Source of the DNA: Entamoeba invadens IP1 | Lineage: Eukaryota > Evosea > Mastigamoebida > Endamoebidae | DNA length: 24,155 nt | NCBI RefSeq assembly: GCF_000330505.1 | Contig: NW_004443518.1 | Span: 17,239 to 41,393 of the forward strand | Reading direction: 5' to 3' | In this document: positions 1 through 19,882 of the stretch, one piece after another | Layout of the letters: each line of letters begins with the position of its first letter | Position numbering within the stretch: the first letter of the stretch is position 1 | The notes under the pieces: generated by a model | Seen by the model: the letters and a program-made list of their open reading frames with translations, nothing else | The model's database searches: none | What the model was told of the DNA's origin: nothing | Program-made: the position numbers and the translations under genes

Positions 1-333
1 GTTCAAAACAATTAAATAGTTTAGTGATTAAAGTGACGACACTAAAAACCGCAATTTGATGATAAAAACACGATCATAACCAATTGATTTGGTTTTAAAA
101 TTAAAATATATCTTTATTATAAAATGGTTACTTCGATTTGTGATTCAAATTGTTTCGAAATGATTGTATCTTATTGTTAAAGATACTATTTCAAAACACT
201 GCATATTGGTTATTACTAATAATAACAAAATCAAGACTATTTGACATACAAATTTAATTTATATTCGTGTTCAAAACACATAAAACTTTTAAATGATGGA
301 AATCAAGTCAACATTCAATAAAAACGATTGATG
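1..333. other. AT-rich flank without a gene
   Basis: This stretch lies left of the Mutator-like element. I see no credible coding frame, RNA gene or inverted repeat. The word GTTCAAAACA occurs at 1-10 and again near 270, which is unremarkable at this base composition. Confidence 0.5.
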
Positions 334-537
334 TTTTTTAGCGTTACAGAAATAGCGTAAATTTAATAGCGTTATTTTTCGTTTTTTGGGATTCCAATTT
401 TAGAAAATGTCTTTTAAAATACATTTTTATTAAAATAAATAAATAATTTAAATAAAACTTTGTATTGTAAATTGTTGGTTTTTGAGACAAACTATTAATG
501 TCAATATCATATTCAATTGATCGTTTTTGATTAATTA
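334..537 (+). repeat. Left terminal inverted repeat of the MULE
   Basis: This segment is the reverse complement of about 5262-5466 with a few substitutions and small indels. Shared blocks include the outer TTTTTTAGCGTTACAG, an AATAGCGTTATTTTTCG block, a stretch containing AAAATGTCTTTTAAAATACA, and the inner TATCATATTCAATT. Similarity fades past about 537. Long TIRs are typical of Mutator-like elements and may hold transposase binding sites and the promoter. Confidence 0.85.
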
Positions 538-640
538 AAATAAGAATATCGATAGAAGTTAAATTAAAATTATTACTGTATTTTATTATTATTAAAAAAT
601 AATAGTAAAATAATATTATTTGTATTTTTAAACAATGTTT

Positions 641-2708
641 TCAATCATTAAAAATAAACGAAACTGCATTATCTAATTTTTTTGGTTTCGTGATTTTTTG
701 TGATACCTCTTTTTCGATATAAACAAGTTTTTTCTTAATATCATAAGTTGTTAACGCCATTTGTCCAGTTTTTCTATTTCTATTGTATAATTTGCAGAAA
801 ATAATGATACGTCTTGAATACATTCTTCGTTGTTAAAATCGAAAATTAAACTTTCTGATGAACTATCAACCGGAATCAAGGACAACGTTTCAGAATAACA
901 TTTTTCTCTCTCATTTGTTGTATTTTGAATTTCAGTAATGTACAAAATGTTTTCATTTGTTATTTTCGAATTTATTGGAGTTTTTACGTTATTGTTTAAT
1001 GTTAATCAGGAACACAATTTTGCTTTCAGTATTTCTCTTTTTTTAAGTTTTTGTTTCATCTGATTTTGTTTTAACAAATTAAACTTGGTTTTAACATTTG
1101 AACTATCAATATTTTCTTCTCCAAATTCAATCAAAGATTCAAAACTTGATACTCTTGTAAGTTCGTTGCTCTCAATAACATTTTCAATAAGAGTAAGTTT
1201 ATTGTTTTTATTTGACTTGTTGACTGTTTGTTCAATTTCGAGTGTTATTTTAGTTGGAATATCTGAAACTACTTTCAGAAACTTGAGTATATTTTCGTTC
1301 CATCTTATTTCTTTTTTTTCAATTATTTTTTTTAATTTGTTTTCGTAATTTACAAAAAATTGTACTTATAATAATGTTCTCTGTAATGTATAAAAAAAAT
1401 TGAAATCGTTCAAAAATCTATTTTCGACATTTTTGAGTTGTTCAATTAATAGGTAAATATGAGGATGAGCTCGGTAAAACCTTTTACTGAAAGATAAATG
1501 AAACGCTTCTGTCCAATTGTTAGTTCTGAATTTGAGATCGTGGAGTTGGCTCCATTCTGTCGGTGGTAATTTATTTAACCATGTTTTGTTAAAATAATCC
1601 ACAAATATATGCAATTTAAGTTTTTCGTCATTTTTTAACGTAAATTTGTTGATTTTATCTGTTAACAGTTTTACAACATTTGGAATAAATTCTATTTCGA
1701 AAAGGTATTCCAAAAAACTTTTTTATGAAGCTGTGAATAATAATATTATTTTGGTAATAACTTTGTAATCTAACTTTTTTCATTCTTTTGATCAAAGATT
1801 TATTAAAATGAAACCAACACACTACAACACACACTTGTTCACCAAAAACTTCTCTGACTGCACAACGAACGGATTTTTCATAATCACTCATACAGTTGTG
1901 AAGTACAATTTGAAAATCATCGCGCAATTTTTCAAAAATGACTTAATGCGCCTGTTTTGTCTTTTCTTCCATTAAAATAAAAATTACAGGAAAAGAACAC
2001 GAATCTATAACGGAGTGTAATGTGAACAATTGTGTAAATATTGAAAGAACGTATTTAAAAGTGCCATCCCCTAAAACCGTACAATTGTTAAAAGAAAACG
2101 ATTTGATTTGTTCTTGACTTGAAAATGCTATAATTCTTTTCGATTCACCAAGATTGTTATTGTAAGTTGTATAAAACAATAAAAAGGAAGTGTTTGTAAT
2201 TGTGTGTATCATACTTTCTTTCAAGATTAAATTGTTTGCACAATCTGGAAGTTTACCAAATTCCTTTTTTTACATCAGAAATCAAAGTTTTTATATAATG
2301 AGTAGAAGGTGCATATTCGTCAATTGTTATTTTTTGATGATTTCATTACATATCATTTTGGGGATTGTGTTTTGTTTTCTGTAATAAGACAAATAACATA
2401 TTTTCTTACTTCAAACTTTCTCCAATTTTCAAGATCTTTTTGGTGAGCACTTACAGGATGATGTTCACATGTTATTTCAATCATTCCATCATCTAAAACG
2501 GTTAGTTTACTTTTGCATCCTTTTGATGTTTTGCAGCGCTCCATGGCATATACAACTTTGGGAAACTGAACTTGTATAGAAAGTGTTCCGTCTTCATTTA
2601 GACATTTGAATTTATAGTATTCCGCATAAACCATCGGGTATCTATGTAGAATCGGATTGTTTTAGGGATAAAAATTTCGTATTGATCTTTTGTTAATACT
2701 CTTTTCAT
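641..2708 (-). pseudogene. Mutator-like (MULE) transposase, frame-broken
   Basis: This is a DDE transposase relic read from an ATG at 2708-2706 down to about 641, originally near 690 aa. Conserved blocks lie in order but in shifting frames. First is a FLYWCH/WRKY-like zinc finger (2353-2634: RCKTSKGCKSKL, then CEHHPVSAH). Next is the first catalytic Asp in LGDGTFKYV (about 2066-2068) with the downstream FTQLFTLH and PVIFILMEEK blocks. The second Asp is in MSDYEK (about 1883-1885), followed by CWFHF. The catalytic Glu is in RTNNWTEAFH (about 1507-1509). A Lys/Glu-rich tail (641-1348) follows, with an in-frame TGA at 1008-1006. Frame changes are needed near 2660, 2270-2350, 1940, 1700, 1366 and 770, so the gene is dead. 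The three catalytic residues survive. Element A lies 43 bp upstream of the start codon and probably separates the gene from its promoter and right TIR. Confidence 0.9.
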
Positions 2709-2752
2709 GTGATTTTAAAATTTTTTAAATCAAAATATTATTTTACAAAGTA

Positions 2753-2891
2753 GTATGTGATTTATGTAGATTTAGGGGGACCTCATTTTTATCTATATTT
2801 TATAATACTTTAATTAAATCGCGAGGGACACTAATCTGATTTTTCCCAAAATATCGACATCTTTGATGTCTCTAGAATCTCACATTCGTTT
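2753..2891 (+). repeat. Left TIR of element A
   Basis: Reverse complement of 4951-5089 with about 4 mismatches. It contains the block TTTAGGGGGACCTCATTTTT, a GCGAGGGACACTAATC block and the small palindrome CATCTTTGATG, which could be protein-binding sites. Similarity stops at CACATTCGTTT. Confidence 0.92.
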
Positions 2892-2992
2892 CAATTCTTC
2901 GGAGACACAGTCTCATTGAGGACCTTTGGTCTGTTCGGTGTTAATTTATTTATAGTAAATTTGTATTAATGTAATTTTTTATTTTCCTTAAA

Positions 2993-3571
2993 ATGATGGA
3001 ACAGTATATGAATGAAGCGTTTAGAAAGTATATCTAGCTTTGTCCTTTACGGTTCTTATATAATGTAGTGTCGGATGAAGACGTTGACTAGAAACTCATA
3101 CCGAGGGCTGATGAATTTATAGATGATTCTGAAAATATTAGTGAACTTGAAAGTAAACATGTAAGTGAATCTAGTGATGATGAATCAAGTGAGCAAAGCA
3201 TCGACACATTCAAAGGATGTGGAGTCCACATCAACGATCTATTCATGCCGAAGGCTGAAGACTTAAATGATTATGTTTATTATAATGAAGAAGATAATAA
3301 AGTTGTAGCTAACTTAGAATGTGATTCTACTAAATTTAAAACAAGAATTAATAAAATTAAAGAATACTTTAATGAGTTTATTAGAAATAATAATATAAAA
3401 GATATAATTGTAAAATAATATGTTAGTCCTAATGTTATTCAAAAAGGTTATGAAATATTGTTAAATTTAAATAATAAAGATAATTATTAAAAAATTCAAA
3501 ACTTTATGGATCATGGTTATTGTAAAGGAAAAGATGGAAAAATATTTTACGGTAATGAAATTACATAGATG
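2993..3571 (+). pseudogene. Element A gene a: unknown protein with in-frame stops
   Basis: One reading frame starts at ATG ATG (2993) and stays coherent to a TAG at 3569-3571. It is interrupted by TAG at 3035-3037 and 3089-3091 and by TAA at 3416-3418 and again near 3488. Between stops the translation is well composed: an acidic, Ser-rich part (SELESKHVSESSDDESSEQS, residues about 55-74), then SIDTFKGCGVHIND, LFMPKAEDLND and a Lys/Asn-rich helical tail. The EQSI...MPKAEDL words recur in the 215-aa product downstream, so gene a is at least partly related to it. I do not recognise the family. It is most likely a decayed gene. Read-through of UAG is possible in principle but unsupported, because TAA stops also occur. 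Confidence 0.6.
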
Positions 3572-3782
3572 ATAATTTAATAGATATTTACGGTCTGTAC
3601 GAACTGTAGTTCTGAGGTTTTCATAAACTGTAAAAACAAAGTAATATATTTTCCATCTTATCTGAAGACATTTATTGAGTATGTTATTTTTATAGTTAAT
3701 ATAATAATACTGTTATATTACTTTATTAATAATATATTTAGTAATGTATAAATAATATATTTTTGTTTTTATCTTAATATAA

Positions 3783-4430
3783 ATGAGTACAGATAATACT
3801 TCTCAATCAAAATCATTAAAAACATTTTTCAAAAATTTGTTATCTTCAGACAAAACAAATCAAACTACAAAGATGGACCCATTAAAACAAATAGATACTT
3901 CTGAAATTATTAAAGTAAGAGATGCAACACGTATGCGTAGCGGATGCACAGCATCCAGTGGCGTCTTCGACGCAACACCAAAAACATTATTTGGTATGTC
4001 TTATTCTCCAAATGAAATTGAGCAAAGCGTCATGCCAAAGGCTGAAACTTTATCTGATATTACTTCTAAACATATTATAGCTTTACAGAAGATAAATAGA
4101 TGTATTAATAATAACCCAGAAGTTAACTTAATCAATACAAAAGATTTAAATGCCACTATTTATATAAATGGTTATGTATTTTGTAAAAATAAAGGTAAAC
4201 AAACATTAATTAAGAAACAAGTTAGAATTACTAAAAATGATCTTGACAATAAAGTCAAAAATATAGAGGGCGAAAAGCAAGAACAATTAGTATTATTACT
4301 TAATAAAATAGAAGAATTAGAAAACAATCAAAATAATATGAGAGATGGAATTATAAATAAGATGCTTCCTATATTAGAACATTATATTACTGTTAATAAT
4401 TTAGATGTTAGTAAATTATTTGATAATTAA
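3783..4430 (+). CDS. Element A gene b: conserved element protein, unknown function (215 aa)
   Basis: An intact ORF with no family I can name. The N-terminal third is Ser/Thr/Lys-rich and low in structure. Around residues 65-95 is ASSGVFDATPKTLFGMSYSP followed by EIEQSVMPKAETLSD. Residues about 118-140 hold a compact block, NTKDLNATIYINGYVFCKNK. The last 60 residues are Lys/Glu/Leu-rich and probably coiled coil, ending LPILEHYITVNNLDVSKLF. The block around LNATIYINGY and the C-terminal helix recur in the decayed gene of element B (8137-8857), so the protein is conserved between copies of the transposon. A TATA-like GTATAAATAA lies near 3744. The stop overlaps that of the convergent gene c. It could be a DNA-binding or accessory transposition protein, but that is inference only. 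No catalytic motif is visible. Confidence 0.75.
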   Translation: MSTDNTSQSKSLKTFFKNLLSSDKTNQTTKMDPLKQIDTSEIIKVRDATRMRSGCTASSGVFDATPKTLFGMSYSPNEIEQSVMPKAETLSDITSKHIIALQKINRCINNNPEVNLINTKDLNATIYINGYVFCKNKGKQTLIKKQVRITKNDLDNKVKNIEGEKQEQLVLLLNKIEELENNQNNMRDGIINKMLPILEHYITVNNLDVSKLFDN

Positions 4431-4849
4431 TATTTATAAAGAGATACTTTTATTTTTATAACAATTATAGGTTCTGGTATATCGACACATCCAATAGATG
4501 TGGAGTCCTCACTTGCGATATCATAATCTGCGTTTACAGCTTTAATTATTTCATCATGATTTAATATTCTTGTTTCTAGAATGTTAATCAATTTGTTCAA
4601 AGCATATTTATCTGTTAAAGGATATGTTTTACTCCAACCTTCATTAGTTTGGTAATTACATATTACATTTTCATTACTTTGTATAGTTTTAAGATACTCA
4701 TTCAAATATTCTTTAATTCTTTCCATTCTTCTAATTGAAATTTTATATCCACATCCAAGATCGACAATTAAGGATTTGTTATCTAAATCACATTTAACAT
4801 AATCATCAACATCTTTATCATAATCAAGTTTATTTATTTGTTCTGTCAT
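4427..4849 (-). CDS. Element A gene c: unknown small protein (about 140 aa)
   Basis: A minus-strand ORF convergent with gene b. The four bases TTAA at 4427-4430 serve both stop codons. I prefer the start at 4849 (MTEQINKLDYDKD); an upstream in-frame ATG at 4873 would add eight hydrophobic residues (MYFFIFFK) for 148 aa. The protein is rich in Asn, Asp, Lys and Ile, with SLIVDLGCGYKISI near residues 26-39, a helical middle and a C-terminus reading SIGCVDIPEPIIV. There is no signal peptide, membrane segment or catalytic signature I trust. It lies between gene b and the right TIR of element A. No counterpart is seen in element B, where only about 200 bp separate gene b' from the TIR. The function is unknown. 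Confidence 0.6.
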   Translation of the reverse strand: MTEQINKLDYDKDVDDYVKCDLDNKSLIVDLGCGYKISIRRMERIKEYLNEYLKTIQSNENVICNYQTNEGWSKTYPLTDKYALNKLINILETRILNHDEIIKAVNADYDIASEDSTSIGCVDIPEPIIVIKIKVSLYKY

Positions 4850-4950
4850 TTTAAAGAAGATAAAAAAATACATTTATATAAATTTACTATGTTTTTATAT
4901 TAAAATAAATTTACAGTATTACTAACCGAGTTTGATAAACCAACGGGACA

Positions 4951-5089
4951 AAACGAATGTGATATTCTAGAGACATCAAAGATGTCGATATTTTGGGAAA
5001 AATCAGATTAGTGTCCCTCGCGATTTAATTAAAGTATTATAAAATATAGATAAAAATGAGGTCCCCCTAAATCTACATAATTTATATAC
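4951..5089 (-). repeat. Right TIR of element A
   Basis: Inverted copy of 2753-2891, ending ...TATATAC next to a TA at 5090-5091. Confidence 0.92.
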
Positions 5090-5261
5090 TACTACAATTA
5101 ATTGTGTGATTTAAAATGCCCAATTTTAAAAAATCATATAAAAAGAATATGTTATATGTATAAATTCATATAATAATACTAACTCAAATTGAGTTTTTTG
5201 TTTTACATTGTTTTTTATCTTGAAATCTTTCAGTTGAAATGTGATTCGAATTTTTAAAAAG

Positions 5262-5466
5262 GATCGATTAATCAAAAATCAATTAATTGAATATGATATT
5301 GACATTAATATTTTGTCTCAAAAACCAACAATTTACAATACAAAGTTTGATATAAATTATTTATTTATTATGATAAAAATGTATTTTAAAAGACATTTTC
5401 TAAAATTAGAATACAAAAACGAAAAATAACGCTATTAAATTACGCTATTTCTGTAACGCTAAAAAA
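5262..5466 (-). repeat. Right terminal inverted repeat of the MULE
   Basis: Inverted copy of 334-537. A 62-codon open frame through this repeat (from 5241) is a by-product of the repeat and I do not call it a gene. Confidence 0.85.
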
Positions 5467-7833
5467 TATTTTACCTGACAAATTGCCACAATCATAACGT
5501 TTTTTAACAAAAGTAATAATGATAAAATCACAGAAATAATGTTCTATTGTTTTTTTATCGTATATATTTGGCATATATTTTATTTTTTGTTGTATTTAAA
5601 TTATTATAAACAACATTTTTTGTTGTCGATAAAAACGAATACTTTTTATACAATTTTCTATAATTTAGTTGGTTAATAATCGTTTATTTTGCATTGGAAA
5701 CATTGTTTTATATATCCATTATCAATGTTAATTGCGTCTTTGATCAACTTTCATTTGTTTTTAAGTAATGTGTGATGGCTTTGTTTTGTTGTTGTGATAT
5801 ATTACGATTTTAAATATTATTTTTTTGTATTGATTCAGAAGCATGTTATTCTTTCTTAATATCAACAAATATTTTTTATTTAATTCAATCAATGAAATCT
5901 AATATAACGTTGTTTTTACTTGTCACTATTGTTATTTGTTAATTTTGTTAAACATTATTTATCAAGTTCAACTTATCCAATATGCGACTTTTATTATTTA
6001 TTTCTGTTTTTATAAACAATTTTCTATATTCTTTCTGTCGTAATTTTTGTTCTGTTTTGCTTATTTGATTTTTTATATCAGATAAATTTCCACAAAACGA
6101 ATTTTTGGTAAAAAAAATAAATTAATTTTATTTATAATTTTATAAACTGTTTTTCAAAAGTCTGTACTGAGGTGTCCCGATTTTTGCATTTATTTTGTTT
6201 ATTATTTTTGGGAATCGTTTTTTTGTAATAAATATCGCTTATTTTTTCCAAGTAAAAAAGAGAAAAACAGTCTTCAAAAAATATTTTTTTACTTGAAAAA
6301 TTTTTAAGCATCAAAAAAAATCCATATAAAATTTAAAATAACGGGATTTTTGTTTCGAAAAACACGCGAATTATCCCAAAAGTGCATTTTATTACAAAAG
6401 CAAATAAACTTAATGTCAATCTTTTTTATTTTCAAACATTTTAATAATTAATGAAAATATTCACAAAACAGAAGCTTAGTTCGAAGATTATTATGCTTAA
6501 TAGTGTTGTCACAATAACAATAATAATATCAAAATGATTTGATAATTTATCTCTGTTGGGTTTTATAAAGTCGATATTATCTTTGATCATTTCAGTGAGA
6601 ACATTATTTTTAAAATATCCAATAACAAAAAATTATTGTTATTTTGTATTATTTTTCTAGTGTTGCCCTTTGACTTGTGTCTGTCAGATTTATCAAACAT
6701 TTGCTGTATTTTTTGTGTTTTTTGAACTCTTTATTTCATTGTTTTTTATTCAGAATAGAAAACCACAGTTTGTTTTAAATTTCAATTAAATTTTAACGAG
6801 AGTAATAATCAGTTAAAACTCGACATAAACAACAACATTCAATTTACTTAAACGTTAATTGTTGTGCTTTTAGGCCAACAATACTGAATATATGTTGCGA
6901 AGTATCGAGTTAAGGTCAAATCAAATAACGGGATCGGGTTTTTTGGAAAAGGCTGGCTAATATTTCAACATTTCCCCGAATTTGTACGAAAATAATTGAA
7001 CGGGATTGGTATTTTTTTCAAAATAAAGTCGGTACTTTCGATTTTTTGTTTTTTGTTTTTTTAGGAAAAAACAAAAATAAAAAACGGGACTTTAGGAAGT
7101 TCTAAAAATATGACAGTACCGACTTTTGAAAAACAGTTTATTATCTATTATTAATTTTTATCTATTTTTTTAGGAAAATCACTCACTATTAATTCCAAAT
7201 TATTTAAACAATTTTGGGACAAAATTAAAAAAAATACCGTTAAAAAAAGCAGAATTGAATGATTATGTTTGTATTAAAATGTTTTATTTAACATTTTTTA
7301 TAATCCAATTCTTTCTTGGAGATATTAATTTTTCTATATTTTTACCAAATAAGTTTATTCGCCAACATAATTAAAACGTAATATAAATGGGTTTTTGATT
7401 GAAAAATATATTAGAAATAATAGACTTTTGGGCTTTTTATTTTAATTGAATAATAAAATAAAACTAATTATAGATTTAAAAAAAGCAGAATAGTTTCATC
7501 GAGCGAGTGGACACTGTAAATATGAAACGTTAAAAAGACTCGCAAAACAGATTTTAAACAAGCAAATTACCATGTAGTGTTGTGCAAAGAACCAATATAT
7601 GAATAATTGAAAAACTAACACAATGACGATGAATAATTTCTTTGGTTTTAAAATTTTTGGGGTTCAAAATGAAATTGTTATGCGTGTTGGTTTTAAACAC
7701 AATTAACTCCAACTCTTAGGTAATTTAGTCTTAAATTACACTTTCTTTAAATAAAATGAAACTGTCCGTTGGCAAGTTTCGGTTTCGATTGGGTTTTTAA
7801 GCAAAAAAAATACAAAACTAAGTTTCAAGACTG
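5467..7833. other. 2.4 kb gene-free AT-rich spacer
   Basis: No credible gene is visible. The one 60-codon frame on the minus strand (6132-6314) is Lys/Phe-rich, matches nothing I know and has the composition of random AT-rich DNA. Noted structures are an imperfect palindrome at about 7011-7131, scattered copies of the word AACGGGA (6340, 6927, 7000, 7081), and a 16-base direct repeat TTAAAAAAAGCAGAAT near 7240 and 7477. Decayed transposon remnants are likely but cannot be delimited by eye. Confidence 0.5.
7011..7131. repeat. Imperfect palindrome, possible hairpin or miniature element
   Basis: The left arm TTCAAAATAAAGTCGGTACT and the right arm AGTACCGACTTTTGAAAAAC are near inverse copies. 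They enclose T-rich then A-rich runs that can also pair (TTTTTTGTTTTTT with AAAAAACAAAAA). It could be a solo miniature transposon or a chance hairpin in AT-rich DNA. Confidence 0.4.
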
Positions 7834-7835
7834 TA

Positions 7836-7937
7836 GTATATATTGGGTCAGTTTCATGCACTTCGCTTTGCTGGCTCATTTAACCGACTTAATATGCTTA
7901 GTTAATTAGTTCCCTTCCTTCCTACTAAAAAAATAAA
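7836..7937 (+). repeat. Left TIR of element B
   Basis: Reverse complement of 10494-10595 with roughly 5 mismatches over the outer 90 bases by eye. Well-conserved blocks are GTATATATTGGGTC, TTTCATGCACTTCGCTTTG and the block running through CTTAGTTAATTAGTTCCCTT. Confidence 0.9.
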
Positions 7938-8136
7938 AAATATAAATTTCTATAAAAATCAGGTCATTTTTCGTTGTATATAAATCGTGCTGATACATGC
8001 ACTCTTTTATAATATAAAACATCCTCACAATTTAGTTAATTTTGTGTCGTTCTATTTTTCTAACTTTATTATATATAATAAATAAATATGGAGTCTAAAA
8101 TAGAACTGGTAATTTTATTTAAAAGAGAACTAAATA

Positions 8137-8857
8137 TTATAAAAAAATTACCATTCTCTTATCATATTTATTAATTGTTTTAATTACTTCATCTTTATCT
8201 AGTTTATTAGTAATTAAATAATATCTTAATATTGGAATAATTAAATCATTAAATATATTTATGTATTTATCTTTTAATATATTTAACTTATTTGTTAATT
8301 CATATACTGAATTTCTTAATGATTCTTCATTTGACATGATGCTTTGCTCAATATTTGACATTTTTATATTTATATCTTCATTGTTTTTATCCATCTCTTC
8401 ATTTAATCATTTCTCTCCAATTCTAATTCTTTTTTTAATTAATTATTGTTTACCTTTTTTTACAAAAAATATATCCTTTAATATAAATACTAGCATTAAG
8501 TTCTTTAGTTTCTAGCTTATTTACTTGTGCATTATTATAAATATATTTATGTATTTCTTTAATACACTGTTTTAATTCTTTCTATTTTTTAAAATTATAT
8601 TTCTTTATTATATTTTCAATAATTTGTATATAATCTAATAACATAAAATTTTCAGTCTTTGACATAGGTATATCTATATGTGTGTCAATGCTTTGCTGAG
8701 TGCTTTGCTCAACTATCGGTATAAACACATCTTCCAAACTTTGTTTCTTAGGACTTTCAGTCCGTTTGGTGTGTTCACTTAAATCTCGAATATTTAGTTT
8801 ACATTTTGAAGTGTTTTTTGTTTCTAAAAATTTATTTAGATTATTTCGTAATTCCAT
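8137..8857 (-). pseudogene. Element B gene b': decayed homologue of the 215-aa element A protein
   Basis: Read from the ATG at 8857 (MELRNNLNKFLETKN). Residues up to about 91 are open. An in-frame TAG near 8580 follows, then continued coding sense NNAQVNKLETKELNASIYIK and GYIFCKK, a frameshift in an A-run near 8450, further stops, and a final open part from 8394 (MDKNNEDINIKMSNIEQSIM ... IIPILRYYLITNKLDKDE). It aligns end to end with element A gene b: ELNASIYIKGYIFCK against DLNATIYINGYVFCK, and IIPILRYYLITNKLD against MLPILEHYITVNNLD. The words QQSIDT, MSKTEN and EQSIMSNEES echo EQSVMPKAET. Function unknown; the gene is inactivated. Confidence 0.75.
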
Positions 8858-9275
8858 TTATTACTTAAAAAATATATAACCACCACACGTGATTTATATT
8901 GGAGAATTATTGGGTATATATGGGTATATCATGTTAAAAATGTTAATATTATGTTAATGAATTTCAAAAATTTAAACATAAGTTGAGATACAGCTTCTAA
9001 TTATTCATTAATATTAATTATTTATAGGTTTTTAGATCATAGATTCCAATTTCTTTGTTTCATTATTAATTAATTGATTAATAATTTAATATGAAGATGA
9101 AGATGAAGTAGTCTTATGTTTTAAATCATCCTTTGTATCCCAATTAAGTAATATTTCATCATTATTTTTTAATGATTTACTAACTAATTAACAAATAGTT
9201 CAAAAACAATATGATTAATATAAATAGTATTCAAATCAGGAACTTGTTCAAATATATTAAGAGATTCTTCATATA

Positions 9276-9328
9276 CAGGGGTGAAAATGAAGGTATTAAT
9301 ATGAAAGCGAATATATTAATTTAGGGTT
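9276..9328 (+). repeat. Left TIR of element C
   Basis: 53 bp, 48 of which match the inverted right end. Flanked outside by TA at 9274-9275. Confidence 0.9.
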
Positions 9329-10175
9329 CATTTTCTTTTAATCTATTGGCCAAAAACTAACTAACATGTAAATCATTAAATTCAAGCCATATGATGCGAC
9401 ATAACTACAACAAAAAACAAGTAAAATTGGACAAAAACCACTATTTCCAACACAGTCACGATTTTTGGAAAGGGAAAATATAGTTAATATTATAGTTACA
9501 AAATTATAAAAATTATAACAATATTAAATATTTACTATACATTATATTATTCATGTTTATAATAAATTTATCATTATTTGGTTATTATTCAAACAACACT
9601 CGACATAAAAATGATTTACGATACTTTGGGTTGTGTTTCAAGGCCTTCACGACCGGCCTGCGTATGAAAAACACAAACCAAAGTGTAATAATGAGCTGCA
9701 TTAACCAATCTGAACGTCAATATAACATTTTTAAATAACTGCGGTGATAATAAATAAATAAACAAACCATAAAGCTGATACTCACACACACATTAAAATA
9801 CACTTAAAATATTTATCAAGTTGTAAACGAATTGTGTTTTGTCTTAAACCCTGAAAATACAATTATATAATAACAAATTTACTATAACACACCGTCAACT
9901 ATTTATAATGGTTTAATTATAACAATTATTACTATTGATTCATTTTTTAACTTTAGCTGATTATTAAAAACACACAAATTCTTGATGAATTTTTATATAA
10001 CCATTGATATAATTAAAATACTATTAAAATATTAATATGTTGGTATCGTTACAAAACATAATTATTGATTCTTTTCATTTTGTTTGCATTGTTTTTCATT
10101 GCCAAATTCAAATCAAAGGGGTTGGCTTAATTTACGAATCATAAAACCAAGAAAAACGCCAAATTTGGTATCAAA

Positions 10176-10228
10176 AACCCTAAATTAATACATCCGCTTT
10201 CAAATTTATACCTTCAGTTTCACCCCTG
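10176..10228 (-). repeat. Right TIR of element C
   Basis: Inverted partner of 9276-9328, ending CACCCCTG with TA at 10229-10230. Confidence 0.9.
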
Positions 10229-10493
10229 TATAATTAATAATTTATTTAAAGAAGCAGATTGCTTTTCAATTTTTGTTTTGGATTTTACTAATAATAATTT
10301 AATTGTTATCTTCTCCAAAAATTCTTCCCATTCATCGTTTTTATCTAATAATAATCTTACTTAGAATTCTTTAATTTGGTTATTATTTTTAATTATATCT
10401 TCAAACCGTTCTTTAATTTGTTTAACTTATTCTAAATTTTTTATTTTAAAAAATAGATCTAAAAAATGACTATTTTTATAGTAATTTTGATTA

Positions 10494-10595
10494 TTTATTT
10501 TTTAATAGGTAAGGAAGGGAACTAATTAACTAAGCATATTGAGTCGGTTAAATGCACCAACAAAGCGAAGTGCATGAAACCGACCCAATATATAC
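10494..10595 (-). repeat. Right TIR of element B
   Basis: Inverted partner of 7836-7937, ending CCCAATATATAC and followed by TA at 10596-10597. Confidence 0.9.
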
Positions 10596-10597
10596 TA

Positions 10598-11001: not shown

Positions 11002-14000
11002 ATGTCGCGCCTTGAAATGATATATTTAATGCAAGTATCTCTATATCTCCCAACACTGTCCGATGTATATACCTTTATTCAAGTGAACCATTGCGCCAAT
11101 TCCGCAGTGACTTCTCTTAAGGTGAACCCGTGGTTTACTCTAACACAAGACATTGAAAGGTTTTACGATTTATTCCACCCCGACACGTTGAACTGCAACT
11201 TCTTACCAATATCTTTTGATTATCTTTTAAAACCAATTTATATCAGAAATTACATTTTAGAAGGCACTCCTGAAATGATCGAAAAAATAACACCAGAAAT
11301 TTGTGAAAAAATGACAAGTTTAAATATTATGCGCACATTTGTGAATAAGAACAACACCCCACAAAAACTGTTTCAAATGATTATAGAAACTTTTCGCCAA
11401 AAGATAACTATGTCAATCAACTATTTCATATATTTTATCGACTTCTTTGAACAGTATGAAACTCGTGACAACTTTAAAAAGATTTTCCCTAAAAACGTTT
11501 TTGTTAATTTTGATATGAATTTTGGGTCAAATTCATTCGGGTCAAATGCATTTGGAACAACAACAAATGGACCCATTAATATTCCATTTAATAAAATTAA
11601 CGAACTTCCTTTAAAATATGCAACACAAATTGATATTGATTGGACAAATAGTGTGTCATCAATGGATAAAGTTACTTTGACACAAAATTGTCGAAATTAT
11701 TCAAACAATATTAGTATAGAATATGCAGATTACTATACACCATTCATCAGAGACAATTCGTTGACATTTCAAACAAAAAATTTGACGCAAATTTCTGATT
11801 TGCATAAAGTTGAAAAAATCATTGGAAAAAGTGTTGCAACAAAAATTACTTTTATGGGTGGCGTTTGTGATTTGAGTCTTTTGCAAATACCAAAATTCGT
11901 CAAATCAATTTCACTAAAAAATGGATTTACACCAAACTCATTTGGAGTCGAACATAAACAAACCAACTTTGTGATGCTTCCTGATGTTTTGAACGTTGAA
12001 GAGTTTGTAACAGAAGGTGTTAATTTCCAATTTTCGGAGGGTTTTAACACTGTTAAAAAGGTTGAAATAACAAACGCCAAAATAGTTAAAAATAAACGAA
12101 TGGAACTACTCGAAAAGTGTAATAAAAAACGTATTTGGGAGAACAAGCAACAATTTCCATTTGCCAATGTCGAAGAGTTGAAATTGGTCAATTTTAGTGA
12201 TGTTTGTTATGAACAATTTAAAACGTTACAAAAACTTTCACTTTTTAATGTAAGAAATGTTGAGTTGTTTATTAATAAAGACTGTGCAAAAAATATTACT
12301 TGTACAAACTGTTCTAACTGCATTTTAAACATCGACTGCGAAAGTTGTGAAACTTTTGAATTCAACATGTGTCCAAATTTTACATTCAATTTCTTGAATA
12401 CCAAAAATACAAATTTAAGTGTCAAAATAATAAATTCTTTAAATTCAAAAATCTCATTGGAAACAGATTTCATTAAGTCTTTGTCTGTCTACGATTCAAC
12501 AAATTTTGAAATAGCGAAAAACACTAAAATTGGGAAGTTGGTGATTTCAAATTCGACGCTCAAAAAGAAAGTTGGTGTCGAAGCAGAAGAAGTTGTATTT
12601 GAAGCCTTGTTGGAATATGTAGATATCGATTTTACCCATACAAAAAGTGTGTTGTTGTTCAATATCGAGAATTTTATATTTTCAAACACATTTGATAAAT
12701 GTGAAATTGTTAAAATCGAGTATTGCCGTGACTGCGATTTTATTTTTGGTGATTCAAAAATAGAACAGCTGGGAATTTTTTCATCGAAAGCAATTGATTT
12801 TAAAGGAAATTTTAACTCCCTTCAAAAAGTAGAACATTATGATTCAACATACACTTTCCCATCGGATTTCAATTTATCAAAACACATAATTTGTCTTTCA
12901 AAATTAAATGAAAGTGAGACTTGTGAATTTAGCACTTTAGAAAAATATGAAGAAGTAAAGCAAAAATGTTTGACAAAAGACGACACGCTTTTTTTAAGAA
13001 CATCTTCACTAAGATACCCCAAAACAACAGTTCCCCCAAATCAAAACAATTTTAATTTGTTCCAAATGAATTTTGGAAATAACAGAAATAGTTTTGGATT
13101 TATAGGACAACCCGAACGACGAAATATTTTTAACGAAGTTGTTGATGCACAACAAAGTTATTGTAGTGTTAATCCAACACTTCCTCCAAATGTTACAACT
13201 GAAAGTGTTACAATTAATAGTCACAATTTTATAATCAAAAATTGTGTGTGCACAGCACTCAGTATTGAACAACACGTTGATTTCATTCCAAATTTGAAAA
13301 TTGAAAATTTCATTGGGGAGTTCCCAAATTTCTCTACAAGTGCATTTGGAAGAGTAGAAATGAAAAACTGCAATTTTGTCGCACCTTTTGAATTTATGAA
13401 AAATAACTTCATGCTCAACGTGGTTGAACTAAAAATTCACCAGTGTACCAACTTTAGTATTGGATTGATGAGTAAAACAAAAGAAGTTGACATTGTCGAG
13501 TCAAATGGGTATATCATTTTTTCGTATGGGCTGGGAAATTTCAACCGACTCAACTTCGAACGATCTCAAATTCAAACGTTTAACAACTCTGGTTTGTATG
13601 AAAATGTCAACGATTTGTGTTTTGACTCAACCGAATTTCCTTCATTATTTGAGAAAAGATGTGTGAACAATTTGGTGATGAAAAACATTGATAATATACC
13701 TTACCAAATGGCTATAATGTCTAAATCGGCAACTTTTGAAAACTGCAAAAATCTTGTTATTACTGTTGGGAATGAGACAGAACACGTCGTTTTGAAAATG
13801 TGCAAAAGGTGTTTTGTGATGTCGAAGAAACCAGAAATCGTTACACAAATAAAATGTGATGATGTCGAAATTTTTGATGAAATGACTGCGCTGACACTAC
13901 GACTGAATCAAGTCAAAGCCGCAAATGTTCCACAACAAAATCAATTTGGAGCACCAACGGGATTTGCTCAAAATGCTTTCCGTGGTGGTTTTGGGTTTCA

Positions 14001-14004
14001 TTAA
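11002..14004 (+). CDS. F-box-like/LRR-type repeat protein with FG-rich patches (1000 aa)
   Basis: A long intact ORF. Residues 1-50 (MSRLEMIYLMQVSLYLPTLS, then VTSLKVNPWF) resemble the F-box-like head common to Entamoeba repeat proteins. Most of the rest is irregular repeats with regularly spaced short beta-like segments and Asn/Cys positions (VEELKLVNFS, NITCTNCSNC, VEMKNCNF), consistent with degenerate LRR or beta-helix folding. Three insertions are rich in Phe-Gly: residues about 172-185 (SNSFGSNAFG), about 680-702 (MNFGNNRNSFGF) and the C-terminus from about 977 (FGAPTGFAQNAF, GGFGFH). No signal peptide or membrane segment is visible, so it is probably cytosolic or nuclear. The paralogue at 21431 lacks the FG patches. 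The stop codon lies in TAATT, an Entamoeba-like polyadenylation word. The role is unknown; a scaffold or substrate adaptor is one possibility. Confidence 0.85.
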   Translation: MSRLEMIYLMQVSLYLPTLSDVYTFIQVNHCANSAVTSLKVNPWFTLTQDIERFYDLFHPDTLNCNFLPISFDYLLKPIYIRNYILEGTPEMIEKITPEICEKMTSLNIMRTFVNKNNTPQKLFQMIIETFRQKITMSINYFIYFIDFFEQYETRDNFKKIFPKNVFVNFDMNFGSNSFGSNAFGTTTNGPINIPFNKINELPLKYATQIDIDWTNSVSSMDKVTLTQNCRNYSNNISIEYADYYTPFIRDNSLTFQTKNLTQISDLHKVEKIIGKSVATKITFMGGVCDLSLLQIPKFVKSISLKNGFTPNSFGVEHKQTNFVMLPDVLNVEEFVTEGVNFQFSEGFNTVKKVEITNAKIVKNKRMELLEKCNKKRIWENKQQFPFANVEELKLVNFSDVCYEQFKTLQKLSLFNVRNVELFINKDCAKNITCTNCSNCILNIDCESCETFEFNMCPNFTFNFLNTKNTNLSVKIINSLNSKISLETDFIKSLSVYDSTNFEIAKNTKIGKLVISNSTLKKKVGVEAEEVVFEALLEYVDIDFTHTKSVLLFNIENFIFSNTFDKCEIVKIEYCRDCDFIFGDSKIEQLGIFSSKAIDFKGNFNSLQKVEHYDSTYTFPSDFNLSKHIICLSKLNESETCEFSTLEKYEEVKQKCLTKDDTLFLRTSSLRYPKTTVPPNQNNFNLFQMNFGNNRNSFGFIGQPERRNIFNEVVDAQQSYCSVNPTLPPNVTTESVTINSHNFIIKNCVCTALSIEQHVDFIPNLKIENFIGEFPNFSTSAFGRVEMKNCNFVAPFEFMKNNFMLNVVELKIHQCTNFSIGLMSKTKEVDIVESNGYIIFSYGLGNFNRLNFERSQIQTFNNSGLYENVNDLCFDSTEFPSLFEKRCVNNLVMKNIDNIPYQMAIMSKSATFENCKNLVITVGNETEHVVLKMCKRCFVMSKKPEIVTQIKCDDVEIFDEMTALTLRLNQVKAANVPQQNQFGAPTGFAQNAFRGGFGFH

Positions 14005-14491: not shown

Positions 14492-16084
14492 ATGGAAAAA
14501 GAAAGTGTATATTTTGGTATTGATCTTGGCACAACATATACTATAACTGCTTATTATTCCAAAGCGTCTTAATGTGTCAAAACTTTAACCTTTTCTTCTA
14601 AAGATCAATCCATTCGTTTAGCTGTTGATTTTAAAAGTTATCCAGTTAAAGTAGCGACCGAATCGATTACAAGCATTTCAGAAGTTAAAAGTTTTTTAGG
14701 TATTGTTTTTAAAGATAGTTCAATTGTAAACATCAAATCAAATTACACTGATATTTTAAAAGACGCCGACGGTTTATGTTATTTTAACACGACTTTCCAA
14801 GGTCGCCCAACACCAGTCCGCCCGTTGAAATTTCTGCAATCATTTTAAGTCATGTCAAAAAGCAAATTGTTGAAAGTGTGGATTTCGATCCCCAAAGACA
14901 GTCAATAAAAGTTGTTGTGACACACCCGTCTTTTTCGATTAAAAACAAATAACTCAACCGAAGAAGCAGCAAAAATAGCGGACATTGATGTCATTTGAAG
15001 AATCAGAACCTACAGCAGCTGCACATAATTATTCTTTGAATAATATACTTAATGGAATGATCTTTTTCTTTGATTTTAAAGGAGGAACTTTAAACACTAA
15101 TTGGCGAGAAAACTGGTAGTCATATTAAATTTTGTGTTATTCATAAAGATAAAAACCTTGGTGGTGTTGACATCGATATTGCACTTCTGGATTATATTGT
15201 TAATGAGTGGGAGGAATACAATGAAAATGAGGTAAACAACTTGTTTGAAGTGCAAAATGGCGATGGCGTGACAATACAAATGAAAATTGTATCACGAAGG
15301 CAATCACTTAAAAAATAATTGAAAATGGAAAGATCGAGTTGTCTGTCAAAGAAAACGTTTCACTGAAATTGACCAAATTTGGCAGTGCATTTTCAATAAT
15401 AATTTCTCGTGATATTTTGGAAGAGTGTTGTTTGTCACTTTTTCAAAGGTGTGAAGAAACGATAAACAAAACATCTGAAAATGTAATGTACGATCTTCTA
15501 CAATAAAAAGTGTCATTTTAATTGGTGGAAGTTCTCAAATACTTAAAGTGAAAGAAATGTCGAGAAGAGTTTTTCCTATTATTTTTCGACCATTATTGGA
15601 GTGTGAAGACGGTAATTAGGTCGTCGCTAAAGGAGATTGTTTGTATGCACGAGACACGAAATCAGTTAAAAATCATATCACACAAATTACAGCAAGAGAT
15701 GTGAATATGTTGATGACAACAGTTGATATCCACAAACAAAATAAACAGGAATATATCAGTTACTTTGATTACTAAAGGAACACAATTATAAGTAAAAAAC
15801 GTCACTTTTAGTGTCCCAACAATCACACCAACCGTTTCAGTCATACTTGCAGAAAACAGAAGTTTGATTAAAATATTCGAAACAACTCTGAGGTTCAGTT
15901 TTTGGGATAAAATTATTTTTAAGTTTGAGGTTGATGAAATAGAAAAAACAAATTGGTTGTATTGGACAAAGATGGAAATCAAGACACAGGACAAATTGTT
16001 GTCAAATTGACAAGAAATGAAAAACAGGAAACACAAAAAATTGAAAAGTACAGACAAAACCTGAAAAAATATTTAGGATTTTAA
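14492..16084 (+). pseudogene. Divergent Hsp70-family ATPase, multiply broken
   Basis: The frame opens at 14492 with MEKESVYFGIDLGTTYT, the Hsp70/actin phosphate-1 loop, and is cut by TAA at 14570-14572 (codon 27). Recognisable Hsp70 blocks follow in shifted frames: EVKSFLGIVF; EISAIILSHVKKQIVESV; VVVTHPSFS (matching the ITVPAYF strand); SEPTAAAHNYSL (matching NEPTAAAIAYG); FDFKGGTL (a changed phosphate-2 DLGGGT); LGGVDIDIALLDYI; and LIGGSSQILKVKEM (the adenosine-site GGSSRIP). The substrate-binding half is poorly conserved, ending IEKYRQNLKKYLGF and TAA at 16082-16084. At least four frameshifts and several stops rule out a functional chaperone. The length of about 530 codons is shorter than a typical 640-aa Hsp70. 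It was probably one of the divergent Hsp70 paralogues of Entamoeba; that assignment is inference. Confidence 0.85.
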
Positions 16085-16845: not shown

Positions 16846-17904
16846 ATGATGTTCCTCATTCCTCTTTTGTTTGTTTCTTCTTTGGCGGATTGTTCTCTTT
16901 TCATTGACTATAGTGGCTGTGTAAAAGCTGAAGTGACTTCAAAATGCTCGGGCGCAGTTATCATTCCGAAGGAATACACATGCATAGCCGATTATGGCTT
17001 CACTAACTCCCAAATCTCTCAAGTGACTTTTCAGTCCAATTCTGCAGTCACAATTGGTTCTTCTGCTTTTCAGCAAGCTCCACTAAGAACAATAACAGCA
17101 CCGGGTGGATACGCATCTATAGGCTCTTATTCATTCGATAGCACTTTTCTGAGCACTTTCACTTTAACTTCCTCAACGAATTATGGTATTAACGTCTTCA
17201 TCAATTGTAAGAGTCTTGTTTCCGTTATAATCAAAGACGACATGACAATTCCTAAACAAATGTTTGCCGGGTGTTCGAAACTAAACATGATACAAGGCCA
17301 AAACTACATCACGGACATCGCAAGTGGTGCTTTTAATGGATGCACTGCACTCACACAATTCAGTTTCGATAACATCAAAAGTGTTGGGAGTTACGCCTTT
17401 GCGTTGTCTGGACTCCATAAAATCACTTTGAACCCAACAACCAAATTTGGAGAAAATGCGTTTGAGGAGAGTAAAGTTGCGTCAGTCAATTTTAACGGAG
17501 CTGACAAAGTAGTGCCGTATATGCTCAGAGATACTACACAATTGAGTATATTGTCAGGATTGGAGAGCATCAAATACATCCAACAACACGCTTTTGAAGG
17601 GTGTTCTAAACTTAGTTCTATCCATTTGTACGAAGGGTTAAGTACCCTTGGCGAAGAGGTTTTTAGTGGAAGTGTGAAGACCATATTTTACCATGGTACT
17701 ACAAAGCCAAAATGTGATGAAAACGCTTTGTCAAATAAAGTCGTTGTGTATGTGTCTGATAACTATATGTCAACTTCTTTTTGCACAGTCACAGTAACTA
17801 AGGCACACTGCTCCAACAAAGAAAAAATTAACACAACTTCGGGAAAATGTGAGCCGTGTTCAGGAACAGGTTCGGGAAACGATGGAGTCACCGATTCATG
17901 TTAA
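16846..17904 (+). CDS. Secreted BspA-like leucine-rich repeat protein (352 aa)
   Basis: The start MMFLIPLLFVSSLADC is a short signal peptide, so the product enters the secretory pathway. From about residue 45 to 285 it is built of BspA/TpLRR (LRR_5) repeats of about 23 residues with the pattern ..IGSSAFQ..., IASGAFNGCTALTQF, VGSYAFALSGLHKI and IQQHAFEGCSKLSSIHL. The last 50 residues are Cys-rich (CTVTVTKAHC, SGKCEPCSG) and end TDSC. No transmembrane helix, and no CAAX box of the kind reported for the Entamoeba surface protein EhLRRP1, is visible. The protein may be secreted, or be a shortened form of a longer receptor-type protein with CXXC repeats. BspA-like repeats in other microbes bind host matrix or other cells; that role here is inference. 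It is convergent with the gene at 18237. Confidence 0.88.
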   Translation: MMFLIPLLFVSSLADCSLFIDYSGCVKAEVTSKCSGAVIIPKEYTCIADYGFTNSQISQVTFQSNSAVTIGSSAFQQAPLRTITAPGGYASIGSYSFDSTFLSTFTLTSSTNYGINVFINCKSLVSVIIKDDMTIPKQMFAGCSKLNMIQGQNYITDIASGAFNGCTALTQFSFDNIKSVGSYAFALSGLHKITLNPTTKFGENAFEESKVASVNFNGADKVVPYMLRDTTQLSILSGLESIKYIQQHAFEGCSKLSSIHLYEGLSTLGEEVFSGSVKTIFYHGTTKPKCDENALSNKVVVYVSDNYMSTSFCTVTVTKAHCSNKEKINTTSGKCEPCSGTGSGNDGVTDSC

Positions 17905-18236: not shown

Positions 18237-19882
18237 TTAATCAATAGTTTTAACAAATCCCTTTTCAAACTTGTATTTGTCTTTCAAAAAATCGTATATT
18301 TGTTCACTCACTACCTTTTTATGAACTCCATTTTCTGGTTCGTTTTGTATAACAATTTCTTTTAACTTTTCACATTGTACAAAGTTGGTATTTTTATAAT
18401 TAGACCATTTTGGTATTTTGAGTAAAGTTACCTTTGTTAAGTTTTGGCATTTTTTTACAAACAAATTTTTTTTGCTCAAAAAAACAATTTCTTTTAATTG
18501 ATCACAATTATCTATATTTGAAGAATTATTATTATACCACGAACAAAGAATAACAACCTTTTCAAGCTTTTGACAATTTGTTATTTCAAAGTCGGTAAAT
18601 ACTTTTTCGTGTATTTCTATATTTGTTATTTGTCTATCTATAAATGCGTATCTATCAATTTGGTTACAAAAACTGGGGACTTTTCCATTGAAAATTTCTA
18701 CGTCTTTTCCAGTAAAGATATAGTCAACGTTCTCTAAATTTTGACTCATAAGCATCTCTCGCATAAAACAAGCTGCAGTTTTGTAGGATTTCTTTGTTTC
18801 ACTTCTGTTGATCACATCAATTTTATTTAAATTTTGAAGTTTATATAAATCTCTAAATTGTATTTGTGATGATATAGTAATTGCAGTGACTGCATAATTA
18901 TAGTTATTGAATTCACCAACAACACTGACGTTTCGCAAATCCATATTTGGTATTTTTATACAATCTAAATTGTTCCAATCAATGGATGTTAAAGTATTTG
19001 GAATACTTCCTTCATTAATTATACCTTTATTAAAAAACGCTTTGGACTCTATATGTGAAATGGGATACTCGAATAAAGCGTTTAGTGAATTCTTCCAATG
19101 AGAAACGTCATAAGATGACAATGAAATAGTGGGATCCAATTTTTTAAATGCCTCAAAAGTTGAAAAGTTGATCAAAGTGTTCAATTTTTTTAACCCATTT
19201 GTCGTCACGTTTTTGATGTTGTAACAATGAAAAAATGCATTTGATCCGATGCAATTTAATGATTTTGCAAGAGTAATGGAAGACAAATTGGAACACTCTT
19301 CAAAGCATTTTTCACCAATATTTGTCACATAATAAAGGTCAATCTCTTTAAGGTTCCTACAACAGTAAAAACATTTAAATGGAAGTACTGTAAGGCGTTT
19401 GTCTAAATGAATTTCTTGAAGCGAAGTGTTTTTATAAAAACATTGTGTACCAAATGAGAGTATATTGTGCATGTCAAATATTTGCTGAGTTGAAGATAGA
19501 AATTCAAAACTGAAACACCCATTAGAAAGTATTGTAGCACCTTCAAAAGTTTTGTATTTTAAATAATCGGCGTTTGTGTATCGAACTTTTTTAAAGTTGA
19601 ACAATTGGATTTGAGTTCTAAATATACCGAGTATGACAATAGATATTCGTATACACATTTACTATATCTGTCATCGTCTTCATCATATTTGGAATACATA
19701 TGAAGTGTTTCAACATTCGAAAAGAACTTATTTTTGCCTTTCATAGAAACAGGATTATAGTGAAACATGGCGGGGATTTCAGCAAATTTTTTGCAGACGT
19801 GGACCAACTTAATGAAGTCCCCAATGTCTTTGAAATATTTAGAAACGATCATAACATAGTAACGTTCAAGGCGAATTGGCAT
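18237..19882 (-). pseudogene. BspA-like LRR protein, intracellular type, one frameshift
   Basis: The N-terminus is read from the ATG at 19882: MPIRLERYYVMIVSKYFKDI, then LVHVCKKFAEIPAMFHYNP, the head typical of Entamoeba BspA-like proteins without a signal peptide. This frame closes at 19559. Coding sense continues in the next frame (NFKKVRYTNADYLKYKTFEG), so one single-base indel near 19600-19620 separates head and body. The body, open to the TAA at 18237-18239, has LRR_5 repeats such as IGEKCFEECSNLSSITL and IGSNAFFHCYNIKNVTT, and later irregular repeats. No intron with GT...AG borders restores the frame. It is a recently broken gene or an assembly error; everything else looks intact. If whole it would be about 545 aa. 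Confidence 0.8.

Follow-up and report, generated by a model that had tools for sequence, protein, structure and literature searches.

A probable non-autonomous Polinton-type element carrying a selected gene in Entamoeba invadens

Polinton/Maverick elements are marked by long inverted repeats with an AG-type end motif. Here we describe two elements, A and B, each bounded by terminal inverted repeats (TIRs), in a 24,155-nucleotide stretch of the Entamoeba invadens IP1 genome (contig NW_004443518.1, positions 17,239 to 41,393; hereafter the window), and argue that A, and less surely B, is very probably a non-autonomous element of the Polinton/Maverick type that is moved in trans and carries a gene under selection, p215. 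Polintons of this species include one of 16.5 kb (PMC3511435) and the Ei_Polinton family, with five complete and 126 incomplete copies (PMC2657916). The rve integrases of the Polinton group typically produce 6-bp target duplications, with about 4-6 bp also named (PMC12220804); these and the other articles are cited here from excerpts. A resembles the E. invadens Polintons in its ends, its long TIRs, its relative of the PolB N-terminus (p148) and its presence in the same genome, but it is only 2.3 kb long, lacks the PolB catalytic domain, the integrase and the ATPase, carries p215 and has a 4-bp duplication. A first-pass annotation of the window, made from the letters and their open reading frames (ORFs), had proposed an undescribed transposon family; in agreement with this, no description of p215 elements was found in the open-licence literature searched, including the available excerpts of PMC2657916, PMC3511435, PMC12220804, PMC2836005 and PMC3671162.

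Element A occupies positions 2749..5093 of the window (2345 bp, AGTAGTAT...ATACTACT; no strand is assigned to whole elements or duplications), as delimited by its inverted repeat, by alignment of its ends with those of relatives and by an empty site. An inverted-repeat search of the window gave TIRs of 143 nt at 2749..2891 (+) and 4951..5093 (-), 97% complementary between the arms. The first-pass annotation had placed the ends at 2753 and 5089, four bases inside the true ends with their AGTAGTAT, and had rightly described the TIRs of both A and B as longer than 100 bp. The TIRs of A reach the first codons of its two terminal genes (2952-3003 and 4839-4890, an 87% inverted match), so that both genes begin with the same residues. 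When the 35-Mb assembly, in which the window lies on contig C59, was searched with the TIR of A, at least 51 matches were obtained, and the aligned copies start with AGTAGTAT and finish with ATACTACT, apart from a few one-base variants (AGAAGT in C9, AGTGGT in C8:88k).

An exact 4-bp direct repeat flanks this boundary in 13 of the 18 elements with two ends, A among them; when the flanks of the same elements were re-paired 100,000 times, such matches numbered 1.66 on average and never more than 8. Other repeat lengths are rare in this set (5 bp in none, 6 bp in one, C9, and 2 bp in two). C9 is also one of the 13, but it counts as weak evidence for a 4-bp duplication because its flanks are fully mirrored. 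The duplication of A is ACAA (2745..2748 and 5094..5097). A relative of the older TIR element in which A sits, found at C65 (L049), lacks A and has ACAA once; this copy, which shares 95.3% identity with the host element across 1693 nt, provides a paralogous empty site. The flanking TA that had been taken for a duplication lies inside the AGTAGTA of the TIR, and a Tc1/mariner-like TA target duplication is ruled out by the empty site and the flank re-pairing. Among the 17 elements for which a comparison of the two TIRs was tried, B included, C60 yielded no TIR alignment; in 10 of the 15 aligned elements other than B the two TIRs agree at every position along 175-416 bp, which points to recent movement. 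Four-bp duplications are also known from Ginger elements (Ginger1 and most Ginger2), which have gypsy-integrase-type transposases, but Ginger ends are TGTNR (PMC2836005), whereas A-type elements begin with AGTAGT and are linked to PolB.

The same ends are found in a full-sized Polinton of the same genome. The C134 element is 12,207 bp long, has TIRs of the A type with arms 100% identical over 175 bp, and is flanked by a 4-bp duplication, CAAA, rather than by the 6 bp expected of Polintons. Its PolB matches DNA_pol_B_2 (Pfam, E 1.8e-43), with what we take to be the exonuclease and polymerase motifs. Its integrase has no direct Pfam match; EIN_259600 of E. invadens IP1, whose UniRef name opens with 'Integrase catalytic domain', aligns with 79% of the query at 97% identity, and distant relatives match rve (PF00665). 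By our reading this Polinton-type integrase (L013:8021-9646, -) has a D-D-D triad in place of D-D-E, kept in distant metagenomic relatives: D-D-D is found in 12 of 13 aligned relatives, among them P0006, where the surrounding sequence diverges more; the thirteenth, P0002, has a gap. The putative A32-like ATPase is a weak match, below the cut-off (Pox_A32, E 0.0065). The two terminal genes share 30 identical amino acids (L013:1487-1576, L014:3432-3521), and here also the TIR reaches the first codons. Two 4.56-kb elements (C23, L024:937-5491; C213:70k, L030:431-4997), with AGTAGT ends and 73% identity over about 3.5 kb of DNA, contain hardly more than a PolB frame, which is broken in C23, and a small terminal ORF. 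A-type ends are thus common to A, the C134 Polinton, these PolB-only elements and helicase-bearing elements described below. Because the same ends and 4-bp duplications flank Polinton, PolB-only and helicase elements, we regard A as a non-autonomous Polinton-type element. The first-pass annotation had treated the elements as being of unknown type; its ends, the 4-bp duplications and a gene related to PolB connect A with the Polintons that share its genome. A tblastn search of the window with the C134 integrase gave no match, and sequence searches of the PDB with PolB and the helicase gave none.

The gene p215 (3783..4430, +) encodes 215 amino acids with the LNATIYINGYVFCK block and a predicted long C-terminal helix. 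A genome search gave 57 matches, which we grouped into about 33 places (a lower bound). Ends were checked at 20 of these: 13 copies lie between two ends of the A type, and for a further seven the sequence read contains one such end, so that at these places p215 was not seen as an ordinary single-copy gene outside TIRs, a finding that by the first-pass annotation would have spoken against the family. Purifying selection is evident between copies. The ratio of non-synonymous to synonymous substitution rates (omega) is 0.43 (95% interval 0.30-0.60) for seven class 1 sequences without the divergent L031 copy, 0.37 when L031 is pooled, and 0.33 (0.21-0.51) for the last 120 codons. In class 1 elements, selection is visible on p215, chiefly on its C-terminal part. 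It had no tblastn match in the loci of 10 PolB places, where most of the PolB elements are present only in part. No match at E 0.01 was found in a single-sequence search of 5.8 billion proteins, and searches of IMG/VR with p215, the helicase and the integrase gave no relatives. Among 7997 candidates scored, a p215 profile found two partial E. invadens proteins and no protein of E. histolytica or E. dispar. The structure model is weak (predicted local distance difference test score, pLDDT, 58.5), with the exception of the long, coiled-coil-like C-terminal helix; it includes a small beta part of low confidence. Because the four ORFs of A and B that were tested gave nothing at Pfam cut-offs, no transposase is recognised in either element, as had been stated before.

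The p215 elements fall into three classes. Class 1 (A, C201, C30 and others) combines p215 with p148 and, where read, with a further terminal gene, pX. Class 2 (C186:393k, C186:470k, C93) has a helicase-like ORF, p215 and a terminal small protein, with AGTAGTAT at both ends in one element and at one end in two. The helicase looks SF2-like from weak matches (PHROG DNA helicase, E 4e-4; SNF2-related, E 0.004) and motifs seen by eye. Class 3 (C60, C137, C8, C62) has ORF294 and p215, with the small protein in C62 and C137 and partial matches to it in C8 and C60; both ends are present in C60, one in C137 and C8, and none in the C62 piece. The helicase (omega 0.33, 0.21-0.53) and ORF294 (omega 0.23, 0.12-0.42) are constrained, each in three sequences. 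The small terminal protein is common to PolB-only, helicase and ORF294 elements (C23 against C62, 80% over 54 amino acids, E 9e-29), and is thus a second gene linking p215 elements with PolB elements. Class 2 recalls transpovirons and satellites of the virophage type in being bounded by TIRs, encoding a helicase and presumably depending on a larger virus-like element (PMC3671162); it differs in that the transpoviron helicase is SF1, in being integrated in an amoeba genome, and in having no recognised gene in common with them. One helicase-bearing element lies between mirrored halves of a miniature inverted-repeat transposable element (MITE; L046:1450-1709 and 5598-5873) with ACGT on either side, and looks like an insertion at the centre of a palindrome.

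A longer copy with a DDE gene, of the kind that the first-pass annotation had proposed to look for, is present at C114; its 880-aa gene (L028:3026-5665, -) matches DDE_Tnp_4 and, by eye, has a C-terminal Ulp1-like protease. It was rejected as an autonomous copy, as the gene lies within sequence that interrupts the element, an insertion whose short inverted ends were seen by eye only. The DDE_1 gene at C60 was likewise rejected as the element's own transposase, since it sits between its own inverted repeats.

The remaining genes of A bear on whether the element is simply a decayed Polinton whose ORFs are functionless leftovers of internal deletion, a possibility that we consider well behind the preferred one but the most serious of the alternatives. 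p148 (4427..4873, -; 148 aa) is a 27% relative of a segment of the N-terminal extension of the Polinton PolB, at about residues 236-346 (E 4e-12 by tblastn, 1e-12 by hidden Markov model). Fold comparison of its model (pLDDT 69) with PDB and BFVD gave nothing significant (lowest E 0.013 and 0.056, respectively). The N-terminus of E. histolytica PolB2 was suggested to be a terminal protein (PMC3511435, in the excerpt available), and by analogy p148 may be a candidate terminal protein. pX (about 2993..3577, +) is a broken terminal ORF, a distant homologue of p148 that is 63-65% identical to the open copies L036, L034 and L031. Evolution of both between copies cannot be told from neutral (p148, omega 1.2, 0.70-2.57, five sequences; pX, omega 0.77, 0.52-1.18, four sequences), which favours this possibility, as do the stops in many copies and an element at C186:454k (L019) with an ATPase and a truncated PolB. 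p215, by contrast, is constrained, was not found in PolB elements and is common to three classes of differing composition. At only 27% identity to PolB, p148 is ruled out as the outcome of a recent deletion in a known Polinton, and none of the Polintons seen here gave rise to A by recent deletion. A is similar to MITEs and other non-autonomous derivatives of DNA transposons in being short, bearing TIRs and, as we suppose, moving in trans, but differs from them in having a protein-coding gene that is under constraint and was not found in the PolB elements.

The shared ends and duplications also allow a more elaborate reading, for which we would claim little: a modular, possibly multipartite Polinton system in Entamoeba. 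It would be made up of full elements, of elements with PolB only and of three or more classes of p215 satellites. These would have in common their ends, a D-D-D integrase that produces duplications of 4 bp and, for some of them, a small terminal protein, with PolB, an SF2-type helicase and p215 split over separately integrated units. In its strict form, which is somewhat more doubtful still, the full, PolB-only, helicase-p215 and ORF294-p215 elements would be segments of one virus-like replicon family using the same ends and integrase. The common ends and 4-bp duplications, the terminal small protein of the 4.56-kb PolB-only, helicase and ORF294 elements, and the constraint on the helicase and ORF294 would fit such a multipartite system, whereas the full element seems to have its own PolB and integrase, which counts against it.

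It is very unlikely that A represents ERE1 or ERE2, transposon-like repeats of Entamoeba, in E. invadens. The orphan proteins of these repeats are likewise under purifying selection (0.47-0.49; PMC2657916), but their TIRs, duplications and protein lengths are unlike those of A, and the p215 profile, which found no E. histolytica or E. dispar protein among the 7997 candidates scored, gave no sequence link. According to the excerpt of the same article, ERE2 has TIRs of 22 bp, is flanked by duplications of 3-14 bp and went undetected in E. invadens, and Ei_ERE1 encodes a protein of 327 aa, compared with p215 by description only, and has no large TIR. The 143-nt TIR of A does not correspond to the 22-bp imperfect TIRs of ERE2; the 4-bp duplication alone falls within its range. 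Least credible of all is a new transposon superfamily with p215 (or p148) as its transposase and TA as the target duplication. In its favour, p215 is the sole clearly constrained class 1 protein and has no recognised family or confident fold. Against it, the TA lies within the TIR, 4 bp are duplicated, A shares its ends with an integrase-bearing Polinton, and the p215 model consists of a long C-terminal helix and the small low-confidence beta part.

We return to A as a non-autonomous Polinton-type element. A has retained Polinton ends (AGTAGTAT and a long TIR), would be copied by the Polinton PolB, and most likely would be integrated in trans by the rve-type integrase of full elements with a 4-bp target duplication; movement in trans had already been one of two options in the first-pass annotation. 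p148 and pX are relatives of the PolB N-terminal segment, retained at the two ends and not clearly selected. With p215 constrained and common to three classes of small elements, A is more than a deletion remnant on this reading. Having neither integrase nor polymerase but a selected gene not found in Polintons, A probably lives off them, and p215, given its selection, its presence in three classes and its lack of a match at the 10 PolB places, looks like the hallmark of a satellite. The protein might help satellites use their helper, for example by binding the TIR or an origin; this role is a guess, because p215 has no recognised fold or homologue outside E. invadens in the searches made. Both the satellite and the multipartite reading are inferred.

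Several points weigh against this picture. Mobilisation of A in trans is presumed, and Polintons usually duplicate 6 bp of their target, against 4 bp here. Five of the 18 two-ended elements are without a matching 4-bp duplication (C201, with one mismatch, C204, C213:88k, C209 and C213:70k). The TIRs of A, 97% alike over the outer 143 bp, are only 82% alike over 257 bp, so A is not a young copy. The identity of p148 to PolB is low. Omega of p215 before the last 120 codons is 0.71 (0.46-1.15), so that constraint is clear only for those codons; one class 3 pair (L043-L016) gives 1.41, at a synonymous divergence (dS) of 0.03 and with very few changes; and the values come from uninterrupted stretches only (seven p215 sequences), a biased choice. 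The 10 PolB loci with no p215 match are part of 14 PolB-like places, four of them unread. A capsid gene of C134 is not established, as the candidate ORFs match no Pfam family above the cut-off.

If the reading of A is true, Polintons, possibly integrated viruses, are accompanied in an amoeba by satellites of their own, much as virophages and transpovirons accompany giant viruses; repeats with orphan proteins such as ERE1 and ERE2 would gain a testable explanation, movement in trans by a Polinton integrase; and the 4-bp duplication together with the D-D-D integrase would characterise a separate lineage of Polintons.

Element B (7834..10597) is a TIR-flanked relative of A, delimited by inverted-repeat and TIR searches with ends uncertain by 2-3 bases. 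Its TIRs (7834-7959 and 10472-10597) are 126 nt long and 89% matching, and a genome search with them gave one further place only. The ends TGTAGTATATATT and TCTAGTATATATT resemble AGTAGTATATA and are of the AGTAT type, and the target duplication is unreadable. B contains a broken p215 relative (8137..8857, -; ORFs 8137-8394 and 8582-8857), matched by tblastn in two frames with 50% identity over 38 amino acids (E 3e-8) and 34% (E 1e-5), and the block LNA[ST]IYI[NK]GY[VI]FCK reported for both elements is indeed common to them. The broken gene is nearest to class 3 copies (83-84% over about 270 nt to C62, C137 and C8). The earlier claim of an agreeing gene order holds for p215, but p148 and pX have no match in B better than E 0.8. 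B appears to be an older relative of A, and that both are mobile members of one family is upheld for A and, with less certainty, for B.

Features that the first-pass annotation had not reported are the broken pX, a nested inverted-repeat element within B (9272..10232, 961 bp, ends TATACAGGGGTGAAA) and the older TIR element harbouring A (331..5469). The arms of the latter (331-528 and 5275-5469) were found by inverted-repeat search, with pieces 92-100% matching, and the element, perhaps Mutator-like, is the one whose relative at C65 lacks A. Two ORFs within it (1943-2212 and 2353-2634, -) have no Pfam match. Elsewhere in the window, two ORFs of 1000 aa (11002-14004) and 903 aa (21431-24142), with no Pfam family above the cut-off, have a near-identical start, EMIYLMQVSLYLP. 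BspA-type leucine-rich repeat genes (16846-17904 and 18237-19658) sit between them, and a broken frame at 14492-16080 resembles an Hsp70-type gene, recognised by eye only, with FGIDLGTTYT near its start.

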